32,803 bases of DNA from NCBI GenBank assembly GCA_905233215.1, contig CAJODC010000019.1:1-32803 (forward strand). Reading direction: 5' to 3'. The DNA is from an uncultured Synergistales bacterium. Its GTDB lineage: Bacteria; Synergistota; Synergistia; Synergistales; Aminobacteriaceae. Position numbers and translations under genes: made by a program. The notes beneath the pieces were generated by a model. The model saw only the letters and a program-made list of their open reading frames with translations, did not search any database and was not told the origin of the DNA. Below, piece after piece: positions 10,387-31,568 of this stretch. How positions within the stretch are numbered: position 1 is the stretch's first letter; every line of letters starts with the position of its first letter.

Positions 10387-11646
10387 CTATTTGAATCTCC
10401 TCTCGTGTTTCTCAAGCTCTTTAACGTCAATGTAAATCTTTCCTGCTCTGACTTCATACTCAAAAGGCACGGGGTTACAGCCTCCTTTGAAGCCGATAGT
10501 GTTCTTGTTCATGACGACATCGCATCTTCGGCAGACTACTTCATCATCTCCACGTTCATAATACCCGGCAGGCCCGCATATGTCGCAGGCATCGAGTCCG
10601 ACTCCGTAAGCGGTCCCGGCAGGTTTCTTGACGATGAGGAAGCGAACGTCAAAGCCTCCCGGCGTAACATATGAGAATTTGTGAAGGTGTCCGTCTGAAA
10701 CTTTCGTGAGTTCAATGCTGATTACTCCGTCTGAAATGTCGTAGGGTTCGGGCTGAATTTCCGCCGGTGGCTTCGTGTCGTAATAGTGAAGGACAACGAC
10801 AATGAACACCGCCAACGCTCCCCAAGCGCATAAGCTCCACGACCATCGCCGACAGTCCCTGAGTCTTGCCTTCTCTTTTCGGAGAAGTGCCTTGTTGGGG
10901 TAAACATGTCCGGGCTTCAAGTGAGTGTAAATCACAAACGCCAGCATCACCAGAGCGAGCGCAAGCTGTGCGAAGAGAAAAGCGTTCGGGTTAGCGTCCC
11001 TCCAAATCATAACGTCAAAGACCGAAACTCCCATGAATGACTCGGAAATCTTGAGGATTTTGAGTCTCTGCAACGCTGCCACCGATGACACAGCGAAACC
11101 GAGCGTGTAAATCATCAATGACACAATCGTGAAAACATAGCCCTGTGTCGCAGTGTTCAATGACCTGTGGACTTCGTAAGCACTCAGCGTCAACAGAAGA
11201 CACACGCACACTCCCAGCGTGAAGCCTAGAGCGCGTAACATTGCGTTTGTGCTTATTCCAGCCTCGCCGAAGTAGACGAACTCTCTTGTGTATTGCAGGA
11301 CAGGCGGAACAAGATACATCATCGACACAAAGATTAACGCCGACAATGCCGTCAAGTTTACGAACCAGAGAAATTTTTTCCGAAAGAATGAAGCCGTTAT
11401 CGCCAAGACTGTCGCAGCAGTACCGAGTCCGGCAGTCCAGACGATGAGCCAGCGGTTAAACCAGATTAAAGCGATGTTCATTCCTCTAGGGTCATAAAGT
11501 CTCACGCCCAATACGACACAGCCAGCGATGAATCCCAAGACGGACGCAAGGACTGTGAATCTTCTGCGTGAAAAACTGAATACTATTCCCAGAAAGACAG
11601 CAAAAGCCGCTAAATGATCGGTAACAGCAACGAGATATTTAAGAAT
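10387..11646 (-). CDS. DUF2318 membrane protein with Cys-rich metal/redox domain; start uncertain
   Basis: Eight or so membrane helices are followed by a C-terminal soluble domain with CDICG, VCRRCD and FKGGCNPVP, the DUF2318 pattern of Cys pairs probably binding a metal or acting in redox. It is the Cj1660-type partner in P19/FTR1 systems. The frame is open upstream to a TGA, and the extra part reads ILKYLVAVTDHLAAFAVFLG, a natural N-terminus. But no ATG, GTG or TTG lies there. TTG at 11538 would cut off the first helix. Two options remain: ATT at 11644-11646, 9 bases after GGGAG, as a rare start; or ATG at 11651-11653 with one A too many in the following A5 run. I give the ATT form. Confidence 0.75.
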   Translation of the reverse strand: MLKYLVAVTDHLAAFAVFLGIVFSFSRRRFTVLASVLGFIAGCVVLGVRLYDPRGMNIALIWFNRWLIVWTAGLGTAATVLAITASFFRKKFLWFVNLTALSALIFVSMMYLVPPVLQYTREFVYFGEAGISTNAMLRALGFTLGVCVCLLLTLSAYEVHRSLNTATQGYVFTIVSLMIYTLGFAVSSVAALQRLKILKISESFMGVSVFDVMIWRDANPNAFLFAQLALALVMLAFVIYTHLKPGHVYPNKALLRKEKARLRDCRRWSWSLCAWGALAVFIVVVLHYYDTKPPAEIQPEPYDISDGVISIELTKVSDGHLHKFSYVTPGGFDVRFLIVKKPAGTAYGVGLDACDICGPAGYYERGDDEVVCRRCDVVMNKNTIGFKGGCNPVPFEYEVRAGKIYIDVKELEKHERRFK

Positions 11647-28610: not shown

Positions 28611-28643
28611 GTCAATGCCACCGGTTATGCTGGTGGTATTGAC
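28611..28643. terminator. Shared hairpin between convergent genes
   Basis: GTCAATGCCACC pairs with GGTGGTATTGAC (12 base pairs, one G-T wobble) with a 9-base loop. It begins 1 base after the coiled-coil gene stop and covers the stop of the DUF4230 gene. The flanking T runs are weak. Confidence 0.6.
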
Positions 28644-29284
28644 TCTGTCGCTGCCTCAAGCTGAAGCACCGTGTCAGACATTCCGATTTCGCCAGCGTTT
28701 TTGCTGGTGAATATTATTTCGGCTTCCATTCCCACAGACGAGACAACTGAAGTCAAAATCTTCCTCACGTTCTCATTCGACCGCAGCAATATCCCTTCCG
28801 ATAATTCATGAGCTTTCACTTTCGCTAAGTCGGCATTAACCTCCCTGTTCTGATCCTCAAGTTTAACGCTGGTGAAAATTCCTGCCCTCTGATCGTAAAC
28901 TTCAAAGCTCTGCATGTCAGCGTAAGCGTCAAGAATTTCACTCTCAGGAAGCGTTATTCTGACTCTGTTCACTCCAAATCTCTCTGACACCTGCGCTTTC
29001 GATAAATCACAGCCGCACACTATCGTTCCGTAATATTTCAACATGAATTTTCTCGTTGTTCCGGGAATGTTGATGTTGAGACCGGGTATCTTCACTCCGT
29101 CAGAGAATGTTACGATTGACTGGAAACGCTCTCGGATTGTCGCAAGCTCGCTCACATTCTGTATGCCTGACAGTATCATTGTCCTGACTGAACGATTCTG
29201 TCCGGCCTTCTTCCGCATCACAAGCACAACGTTGACCGTGATTGATAATATTAACGCAAGTACTAAAGCTATTGCTGCTGTCAA
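28625..29284 (-). CDS. DUF4230 membrane-anchored protein
   Basis: The 219-residue product has one N-terminal membrane helix (about residues 3-22, AIALVLALILSITVNVVLV), then the DUF4230 domain: LATIRERFQSIVTF, YYGTIVCGCDLSKAQV, RITLPESEILDAYADMQSFEVYDQRAGIF. DUF4230 proteins are of unknown function, usually short single-pass proteins facing the outside. Start is TTG at 29284, 9 bases after AGGAGG; no ATG in frame lies upstream close by. It ends inside the shared hairpin with the coiled-coil gene. Its C-terminal third looks like a helical tail with no known motif. Confidence 0.8.
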   Translation of the reverse strand: MTAAIALVLALILSITVNVVLVMRKKAGQNRSVRTMILSGIQNVSELATIRERFQSIVTFSDGVKIPGLNINIPGTTRKFMLKYYGTIVCGCDLSKAQVSERFGVNRVRITLPESEILDAYADMQSFEVYDQRAGIFTSVKLEDQNREVNADLAKVKAHELSEGILLRSNENVRKILTSVVSSVGMEAEIIFTSKNAGEIGMSDTVLQLEAATESIPPA

Positions 29285-29305: not shown

Positions 29306-30659
29306 TTTATCATAAAACCGCAAGATGAATTGCGTTATTATAGTATAATTTTCGCGTGAAATATCATGACAGAAGAAGAAAGATTAGCCAAGAACAACCG
29401 AATACGCGAGAAGGTAAAACAGACCAAGCAAAAACGTAAGTCTCAGCTTTGTCGTGTATTTTGCGTGAAAATCGACACCTCTCACCTTAACGAAAAGCAA
29501 AAACTTCACATGAAAATGCTTTTTGTTGAGGCTAAATGGCTCTACAACAATGCTCTGACTTTTATGAAAGACCACGATGTAAATGAGTATGATACAAAAA
29601 TCCAAACGGTAAACGGACTAGACAAAGACCGCCAGCCGGTAACGCATGAACTGCAATATTTAGGCTCGCAAATGAGGCAGTCAATAATTCATGGAATCAA
29701 GCATAGTTTGAAGTCTCTTTCCACGCTGAAGAAACATAATCACAAAATCGGAGCGTTGCGTTACAAGTCAGACTATAAGTCAATAAATCTTCAGCAATAT
29801 GGAGTAACGTACAGATTCTATGATGATAGCCACATAGGATTTCAAGGCTTCAAGGAACGGATAAGAATCAGGTGAGCAAAACAATTTTGGAATATCCATG
29901 ATATTAAGTTAGCGAATGCGAAACTGTTAAATCTTCCAGATGGTTACTATCTTGCGATAACAACGTATCAGAATAAGGGAGGTGAAAAACGCAGATATAA
30001 ACCCGAAATCGGAATAGACATGGGAATAAAGACGACAATAACGACCTCAGACGGCAGAAAGATAAAAGTATAGATTGTAGAAACGGAACGGGTAAAAAAA
30101 TGCCAAAAAGCATTGTCAAAAAAGAAGAAAGGTTCCAGCAATCGGTACAAAGCAGTGAAGTCGTTGAGAAAAGCATATCAAAAATTAGTGAGCGTAAAGC
30201 GTGATACGGCGAATAAGATTGTGCATGAACTTCTTGAGCATGAACGTGTGTACATGCAGGACGAGAATCTCAGGGGCTGGCATAAAGGATTGTTCGGTAG
30301 GACGGTACAGCATTCAGTGTTAGGGCTAGTGAAAGCGAAACTGATGAGCAATGAGCGTGTAACAGTGCTTCCAGCGAAAGAGCCTACAACGAAATACTGC
30401 CCTTGCTGCGGAAGACTGAATAAGGTCATAACGTTGGCTGACCGAGTGTATGAATGACAAAGAAGACAGAGACATACACGCAACGCGAAATATGATATTG
30501 CTGAGTAAACAAAATACCTGTGGGACGCAGGAAATTTACGCCTTTGGAGAGGACGTAAGACGGAAACAGAAATGTTGCAACGCTGATTACCGTAAGGGGA
30601 GGTAGTTCACAATAATGACATGCTCTCAAATTTTTGGCAACTGAAAGGGGGACTCTCTC
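29306..30659 (+). mobile_element. tnpB-only IS200/IS605 (IS1341-like) element, ends not exact
   Basis: A decayed tnpB without any tnpA fills this stretch. The left edge may lie after the AT-rich TTTAT at 29306-29310, followed by a small hairpin (CGCAA-N6-TTGCG, 29319-29334) and a TATAAT at 29344-29349. The right end is likely between 30605 and 30659, where a hairpin TACC-N9-GGTA (30588-30604) ends the tnpB frame. No inverted ends or target duplication are expected for the family. Confidence 0.45.
29366..30605 (+). pseudogene. tnpB: TnpB nuclease pseudogene, two stops and one frameshift
   Basis: The frame from ATG at 29366 reads as TnpB (N-terminal CRVFCVKIDTSHLNEKQKLHMKMLFV, then KWLYNNALTFM). 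It is broken by TGA at 29873-29875 and by TAG at about 30071. RuvC-I is intact (GIDMGIKTT), RuvC-II reads VYMQDENLRGWHKG with its Glu, and the zinc-ribbon start CPCCG is present. After VYE the frame stops at TGA. The next frame carries on with EDRDIHATRNM (RuvC-III Asp), CGTQEIYAFGEDVRR and a stop at 30603-30605. So one base is lost near 30455, and the second CxxC is not seen. TnpB is a guide-RNA nuclease of IS200/IS605 elements. No working product is likely. Confidence 0.9.
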
Positions 30660-31568
30660 ATCAATAATTCGGAAATCATCTCAAGCCTTCACGAGTTAGG
30701 ACTCGAAGTCGGCGCAACTACTGACGACATTCACGCTGCTTTCAGGAAATTAGCCCGTGAACTTCACCCAGATGTTACCGGGCAGAAAAGCAATTTCCGT
30801 TTTCAGCAGGTTACAGGAGCTTACACTGTCCTCAAAAACTTAACGCCCGAAGAACTCGAATCACTCGTCAAGACTCTCCCTGAACACGAAAAAAACCGTC
30901 TTCAAAAAATCGAGCAGAAACGCCGTGAAGAGTCCCAAAAGGCAGAGCGTTCAGCAAAAATCGACTCCATTCTCAGCAAATACGAATCAGATTTCAGGGA
31001 TTATTACTCCGCGAAAAAATCAGGCGATGACTCCGACATGAAAGCGATAATCTTCCGAATGAAATCGCAGAAGCATAAAGTCATCAACACTGCCCTGAAA
31101 CATTCAGCCCCTTTCGCCAACCGTGTCGAGTTCCGCAAAGCCTTAACCGAAATTCTCAGACGGCCGGAAATTGATTCGTCAACCGCCGAAATAGCCGCCT
31201 CTCTTCCTTTTGATGACAGAACAAGAAAGTTAATCGCTCTTGACACTTCAAGCAACGCCAAAAATTTTCCAGCCGGACTCATCATCAGCTTGATCGGCAA
31301 TGACGCTGACGCAATGGAAAGTATGCTTCTTCACGTGTCCCCCGAAAACACAGCGGTAATTCTCAGGCGATGGCCTTCCGGCAGAAAGATGAACAACAGC
31401 GTAATACGCAGTCTTTTAGCGTCTGACGATGTGAGAATTTTAGTGCCGATTTTGGGAGCGATAAGAACACATTTCCCGGCTTCAGCAATTCATCACAAGA
31501 AAAGAATCGCAGAACTCGAAAATCATTCCGCAGCAGCCGTCAGGGCATGGGCGAAAAAGTTGTTGTGA
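30660..31568 (+). CDS. J-domain protein with HEAT-like C-terminal half; non-canonical start
   Basis: The frame is open from TGA at 30642 to the TGA at 31568. It begins with a J domain: ISSLHELGLEVGATTDDIHAAFRKLARELHPDVTG, with the HPD motif needed to stimulate Hsp70 ATPase. A charged helical linker (LPEHEKNRLQKIEQKRREES) and a helix-rich, HEAT-like C-terminal part follow (SLLASDDVRILVPILGAIRTHF, AAAVRAWAKKLL). No ATG, GTG or TTG occurs in frame before the J domain. ATC at 30660, 8 bases after AAAGGGGG, would give MNNSEIIS, a natural start. ATG at 30615 is in frame but is cut by the TGA at 30642. Starting at 31038 would lose the J domain. Likely a DnaK co-chaperone; partner unknown. Confidence 0.72.
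   Translation: MNNSEIISSLHELGLEVGATTDDIHAAFRKLARELHPDVTGQKSNFRFQQVTGAYTVLKNLTPEELESLVKTLPEHEKNRLQKIEQKRREESQKAERSAKIDSILSKYESDFRDYYSAKKSGDDSDMKAIIFRMKSQKHKVINTALKHSAPFANRVEFRKALTEILRRPEIDSSTAEIAASLPFDDRTRKLIALDTSSNAKNFPAGLIISLIGNDADAMESMLLHVSPENTAVILRRWPSGRKMNNSVIRSLLASDDVRILVPILGAIRTHFPASAIHHKKRIAELENHSAAAVRAWAKKLL

Follow-up and report, generated by a model that had tools for sequence, protein, structure and literature searches.

A candidate near-cognate isoleucine start codon behind a strong Shine-Dalgarno sequence in a J-domain co-chaperone gene, and similar starts in further genes, of a Synergistales genus

In Escherichia coli, infC and pcnB, which encode the autoregulated initiation factor IF3 and poly(A) polymerase, start with AUU codons against which IF3 discriminates (excerpts of PMC9410913). 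Conserved near-cognate starts combined with an extended Shine-Dalgarno (SD) sequence are described for ccpN (AUA) of Staphylococcus aureus and Bacillus subtilis and for cvfC1 (AUU) and infC (AUA) of S. aureus, and reporter output from the S. aureus AUA and AUU sites amounts to about 10% of that from AUG in poor medium (passages from PMC13009471). For Listeria monocytogenes, the excerpted text of PMC13068326 lists six conserved genes whose non-canonical starts are fixed, reports confirmation of infC (ATT) and rnhC (ATC), and presents ATA and ATT mutants of rsbW as well as reporters that rank ATG > ATA > ATT. A small set of such genes per genome is thus already known from these parts of the Listeria work, and the statement in the original prediction that AUU/AUC starts are known mainly from infC-type genes was too narrow.

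The J-domain protein gene described here resembles E. coli infC and pcnB, as portrayed in those excerpts, in carrying a candidate near-cognate AUN start of the kind that IF3 discriminates against. It differs from them in that other genes are concerned and in that infC of its own genus has TTG at the start position in all loci read, whereas the other Synergistales read keep ATA. With ccpN and cvfC1, as excerpted, it shares a conserved near-cognate start, here a putative one, accompanied by an SD; unlike the S. aureus and B. subtilis set, it belongs to another phylum and to other gene families and has ATG orthologs without a strong SD within the same genus. As in the excerpted Listeria account, a handful of conserved genes is involved, but these are spread across a genus in which the J proteins are 54-78% identical to that of the window (12 rows) and not confined to one species. 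The titles and abstract openings covered by our literature search contain no report of such starts in Synergistota nor of a CTG start of recA, and the excerpted parts of PMC3997798 hold nothing on such starts. Within this coverage, no precedent was seen for the phylum, for the genes concerned (foremost recA), for starts conserved so deeply, for the trade-off with the SD or for the disappearance of the rare start from infC.

The window, that is, the entire stretch of 32,803 nucleotides that was analysed, is contig C19 of a draft genome (1.74 Mb, 80 contigs) of an uncultured Synergistales bacterium. Its features are collected in Table 1. An in-frame stop directly precedes the J frame and the earliest in-frame ATG, GTG or TTG is found at 31038 (codon 127), beyond the J domain, so that the start must be either non-canonical or located after that domain. 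The ATC is the codon spaced appropriately from the SD, from which it is separated by the 8 nt ACTCTCTC; coordinates and spacing had been given correctly in the original prediction, which had also rightly pointed to two AUU/AUC-type candidate starts in one window, the ATC of the J gene and the ATT of the FtrD-like (DUF2318) gene. The frame is intact for 302 codons and its product is 54-78% identical to 12 orthologs. The J domain matches Pfam DnaJ (PF00226) with an E value of 2.5e-10 and 40.7 bits against a cut-off of 27.8; an alignment of 13 rows reveals an invariant HPD motif at residues 36-38, an invariant E5 and a nearly invariant I6. Neither a zinc finger nor a CbpA-type C-terminal substrate domain was found in the protein, its J domain being the only Pfam match, and structure comparison of the helical C-terminus yielded ARM/HEAT-like matches that are weak (Foldseek E 0.01 at best) and uninformative about function. 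Other J-domain loci in the same genome are separate weak matches.

Table 1. Coordinates of features in the window
Feature	Position	Strand	Remarks
Divergent DUF4230 gene	28625..29284	-	tnpB-type element occupies the spacer between this gene and the J gene
Decayed tnpB-type element in the leader/promoter region of the J gene	29309..30608	+	approximate limits, estimated by visual comparison with element-free relatives
In-frame TGA stop directly 5' of the J frame	30642..30644	+	read from the sequence
Shine-Dalgarno sequence AAAGGGGG	30644..30651	+	8 nt before the start codon; duplex energy -11.0 kcal/mol
ATC, putative start codon of the J gene	30660..30662	+	ortholog comparison; ATA in most Ile-start orthologs
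J-domain protein, 302 aa	30660..31568	+	J domain (residues 13-60), long helix, all-helical C-terminal part
FtrD-like membrane protein gene (Pfam PF10080; DUF2318 in the original prediction)	10387..11646	-	
ATT, putative start codon of the FtrD-like gene	11644..11646	-	behind GGGAGTGATGAAA; in-frame TGA

All 43 genomes of our genus sample were searched, and 40 of them contain an ortholog of the J gene, fragments included; G007, G011 and G022 encode other J proteins only. The named relatives are metagenome-assembled Synergistaceae or Synergistales, three of them labelled uncultured Fretibacterium, and their sample names refer mostly to ruminant gut. N-termini were readable in 39 cases (G013, where the gene lies at a contig end, was left out, and G005 and G020 were kept as unclear). 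The putative start is ATA in 22 genes, ATT in two (G014 and G016), ATC in the window, TTG in one (G029), ATG in 11 and unclear in two. Twenty of the 25 Ile-start genes are devoid of ATG, GTG and TTG from the in-frame stop to the start codon, the stop being placed immediately before the Ile codon in G016 and one codon earlier in G017 and G032, and the other five have an in-frame canonical codon upstream, a GTG three codons up in G034 and codons further up in G030, G033, G026 and G039. The ATG occupies the aligned codon in five genes of its class and a position 2-9 codons upstream in six (G008, G010, G012, G018, G024 and G038), and G008 and G010 nevertheless retain Ile at the aligned codon, which counts against the reading preferred below. 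The Ile-start class spans J proteins that differ from that of the window by 22-46%. Outside the genus, all 28 fetched matches, some of them distant, possess a canonical codon at the J start place or at most three codons from it, and the Ile start therefore looks genus-specific.

Two comparisons speak for a function of these starts. In the first, start codon and SD strength go together. Duplex energies range from -4.6 to -11.9 kcal/mol (median -9.7) for the 25 Ile-start genes and from -3.0 to +2.9 (median +1.0) for the 11 ATG genes, without overlap (Mann-Whitney p 2e-6, kinship of rows ignored), such that an SD is present in 25/25 of the former and a strong one in 0/11 of the latter. Relatives with an ATG at this codon had been named in the original prediction as speaking against it; this holds in part, for five of the 39 have one and six more have an ATG slightly upstream, every one of these genes lacking a strong SD. 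On the J protein tree the ATG label requires four changes and so did not arise just once, although kinship links the rows. In the seven ATG-J genomes out of 11 in which the SD of recA was read, it is strong in six (G006, G008, G012, G019, G024 and G025; -7.7 to -10.8) and weak in G018 (-1.4), so the absence of an SD from the J gene is mostly gene-specific. A weak start with a strong SD, or a strong start without one, would fit a low J output that is held constant. In the second comparison, the codon itself is not a random choice among Ile codons: ATA stands at 22 of the 25 Ile starts as against 259 of 798 internal Ile codons in the same J genes, where ATT occurs 321 times and ATC 218 times (Fisher p 2e-8, kinship ignored). 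An internal Ile codon with the true start further up was considered and ruled out by the in-frame stops and this skewed codon use.

The position of the codon, its SD, the lack of another start, the conservation and a normal initiator-tRNA core are all present in the sequences. The reading we prefer, with a probability of roughly 0.85, is that the J gene is translated from the near-cognate Ile codon, held by the strong SD, and that this gives a low, IF3-sensitive output of the co-chaperone. Ordinary initiator fMet-tRNA(CAU) would read this codon, which is ATC in the window and ATA in the majority of the Ile-start relatives, and the J protein would consequently still begin with Met. The initiator tRNA would pair with AUA, AUU, AUC or CUG with one mismatch, for which the SD would compensate; a strong SD some 7-10 nt upstream would keep the ribosome on a codon that is normally rejected by IF3, and IF3 would lower the yield. 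From the features of the genes we infer initiation at the Ile codon, low yield and sensitivity to IF3, and likewise a regulatory purpose. Of the 43 genus genomes, 37 contain an initiator-tRNA core whose anticodon is CAT, the other six being draft genomes without a match. No altered initiator tRNA was seen with a search pattern that itself contained CAT and was able to find CAU anticodons alone.

Several explanations compete with initiation at the Ile codon. The ATC at 30660 could be an ATA that was miscalled or misassembled, considering that ATA is found in 22 of the 39 orthologs and ATC in the window's genome alone, a draft of 80 contigs. The codon also varies in other genomes, in which ATT and TTG variants occur, and we regard such an error as improbable; as ATA is likewise non-canonical, it would leave the conclusion unchanged. 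It is very improbable that translation begins elsewhere, at a downstream TTG or ATG or by frameshifting from an upstream out-of-frame ATG. Codon 13 is indeed an in-frame TTG in several Ile-start genes, and in seven of the 25 an ATG, in one frame or another, precedes the start by at most 25 nt, but the other 18 have no such ATG in any frame, and a frameshift from the upstream ATG (ATGAAAGGGGG in some relatives) was rejected on this ground. In the window, use of the next in-frame canonical codon would delete the J domain, and the SD spacing fits codon 1, followed by the conserved residues 5 and 6 of the 13-row alignment. Scarcely credible, finally, is the idea that the original start was lost to the tnpB insertion and that the present frame is a chance remnant, or that the J gene is dead in the window's genome. 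Some 50 nt separate the element from the ATC, and it replaces what, by eye, resembles the -10 region of the relatives. However, element-free relatives have the same SD and Ile start, and the frame in the window is intact over its 302 codons, its product keeping 54-78% identity to the 12 orthologs. Among the 54 loci compared (L001 and L004-L058, several genomes being represented twice), a search with the N-terminal piece of tnpB located it next to the J gene only in that of the window. What lies upstream of the J gene varies by eye, from a divergent DUF4230 leader to the terminal part of another gene and further arrangements, and the SD and Ile codon are retained. With tnpB confined to one of these 54 loci and the same start found in others, the start does not stem from the insertion. 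Its suspected role in removing an original start was not borne out, because relatives without tnpB show ATA at the same codon, and creation of the frame by the insertion is ruled out on the same grounds. With an element inside the putative promoter, the J gene of the window's own genome may nevertheless lack expression.

The tnpB frame (29366-30604) is split by several in-frame stops, with pieces of 169 aa and 114 aa among the open reading frames. The neighbouring DUF4230 gene on the minus strand has a TTG start behind AGGAGG. In relatives, the DUF4230 and J leaders face each other across a short spacer, possibly a shared regulatory region.

Across the genus, at least the genes for the FtrD-like protein (ATT), recA (CTG) and QueT (ATT, ATC or ATA) probably use the same near-cognate device. 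These genes and the J gene were chosen after a candidate start had been seen and are therefore not a random sample. The FtrD-like gene has ATT at the start in 26, ATA in two and ATG in one of the 29 readable genus loci (L274, which contains Ns, was left out). In 23 of these 29 an in-frame stop precedes the start by only a few codons, no canonical codon occurs between that stop and codon 12 in 17, and the median SD energy is -10.3. For recA and QueT, the reading covered 30 loci each, out of 40 and 39 genomes with a match, respectively, and for smc it covered 16. The start of recA is CTG in 24 loci, ATA in two, ATG in three (one of them in the window's genome) and TTG in one; in other genera of the family, TTG, ATG or GTG stands at the start place in all 27 loci read. 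A GTG three codons upstream that overlaps the SD is a possible start in 22 of the 24 CTG genes, but this GTG has no SD of its own, the median SD energy being +0.7 there versus -7.7 at the CTG; the other two have an in-frame stop close upstream instead, and L219 has an additional TTG 27 codons up (SD -8.2). CTG accounts for 21 of 158 internal Leu codons of the same recA genes. In 24 of the 30 loci, QueT (Pfam PF06177) is free of ATG, GTG and TTG over the stretch that runs from the in-frame stop to codon 9; six have a canonical codon there, four of these upstream of the SD, and at least the gene in L390 has no SD. A single genome, G029, has smc with ATA behind AAGGAGG and an in-frame TGA upstream (L223), whereas each of the remaining 15 loci carries TTG or ATG.

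The gene for IF3 itself behaves in the opposite way. Outside the genus, ATA is found at the start position of infC in all 31 loci of the order Synergistales (L068-L080, L082-L086, L089, L092, L093, L303-L305, L307, L308, L316, L324, L325, L327 and L328), 21 of 21 in other families and 10 of 10 in other genera of the family, with exceptions in context for G047, where TTG directly follows the ATA, and for L084, where TTG stands two codons before it. Inside the genus, TTG takes this position in 25 of 25 loci. The codon just before this TTG is ATA in five and ATT in three of them, and in those loci the older infC start may linger. The IF3 protein of the genus shows two nearly fixed column changes, Tyr to Phe and Met to Leu. 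The former column, which we take to be Tyr107 of E. coli, contains Phe in 21 of 21 genus sequences versus 2 of 23 outside.

Taken across the genus, the near-cognate starts appear to be a long-kept habit rather than damage. It is possible, though we favour it less than regulated low output, that initiation in the genus is merely relaxed, near-cognate starts being tolerated, perhaps via the change in IF3. This accepts the use of the codons and differs on their purpose: strong SDs would simply rescue starts that arose by one-step drift, e.g., from TTG to CTG in recA. The number of unrelated genes affected, the single-genome case of smc, the replacement of ATA by TTG in infC of the genus and the genus-fixed Tyr-to-Phe exchange in IF3 all point in this direction. 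On the other hand, the Ile-start class of the J gene persists across the full range of protein divergence given above, its ATG versions lack an SD as though output were kept constant, and smc and infC retain TTG in most or all of the genus loci read. A regulatory purpose could go further still. In a tentative and rather unlikely extension, IF3-sensitive control would have been relocated, with infC dropping AUA and the J co-chaperone, FtrD-like, recA, QueT and perhaps more genes taking over IF3-discriminated starts as an IF3-responsive group, the output of which would then follow the state of translation initiation. The change of infC from AUA to UUG within the same genus makes the purpose of AUA/AUU starts directly testable, and several conserved near-cognate starts together with natural ATG versions of the J gene without SD offer a ready comparison between dosage setting and drift. 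On the practical side, gene finders limited to ATG, GTG and TTG would overlook such genes or shorten them, at the cost of the J domain in the present case.

Scans for further cases were run at several levels and, apart from the one of 34 families, were noisy. A scan of 34 families flagged the FtrD-like and J families only, and decoy codon sets gave 3, 0, 3, 0, 1, 0 and 0 flags, so that by count there is no excess over decoys (2 versus 0-3). Six of the 34 families were targeted, including recA and QueT, both unflagged, the former owing to its GTG column and the latter probably owing to a gapped alignment; none of the 28 untargeted families was flagged. An ortholog scan of 144 clusters, mostly pairs, flagged 18, mostly by codons that are not start-like. 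When single genomes were scanned, 12 of 786 genes were flagged in five genus samples (several doubtful) versus 1 of 277 in two controls, the sole control flag being an ATC beside an ATG, and a scan admitting any codon flagged 49 of 1086 versus 3 of 302 in controls, mostly with codons unable to be starts. Among genes without an early canonical start, an SD with a near-cognate codon was present in 6 of 34 in the five genus samples versus 1 of 5 in controls; by the same criterion the J-flank sample yielded 8 of 14, each of which is the J gene. An SD with other hydrophobic codons was found in 7 of 34 genes of the genus samples, 3 of 14 of the J-flank sample and 0 of 5 controls.

Two further loci deserve mention. 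An OppB-like permease gene (Pfam BPD_transp_1; G029:C5:96964-97878, minus strand, in L141) has a candidate ATT start, and the open frame of the OppB-like gene begins two codons ahead of the aligned start in numerous other members of the genus. In lpxK (G030:C5, approximately 95243-97453, plus strand, in L159), GGGAGGGG is followed by ATT CTG, either of which is a candidate start; 49 codons separate them from the best canonical codon downstream.
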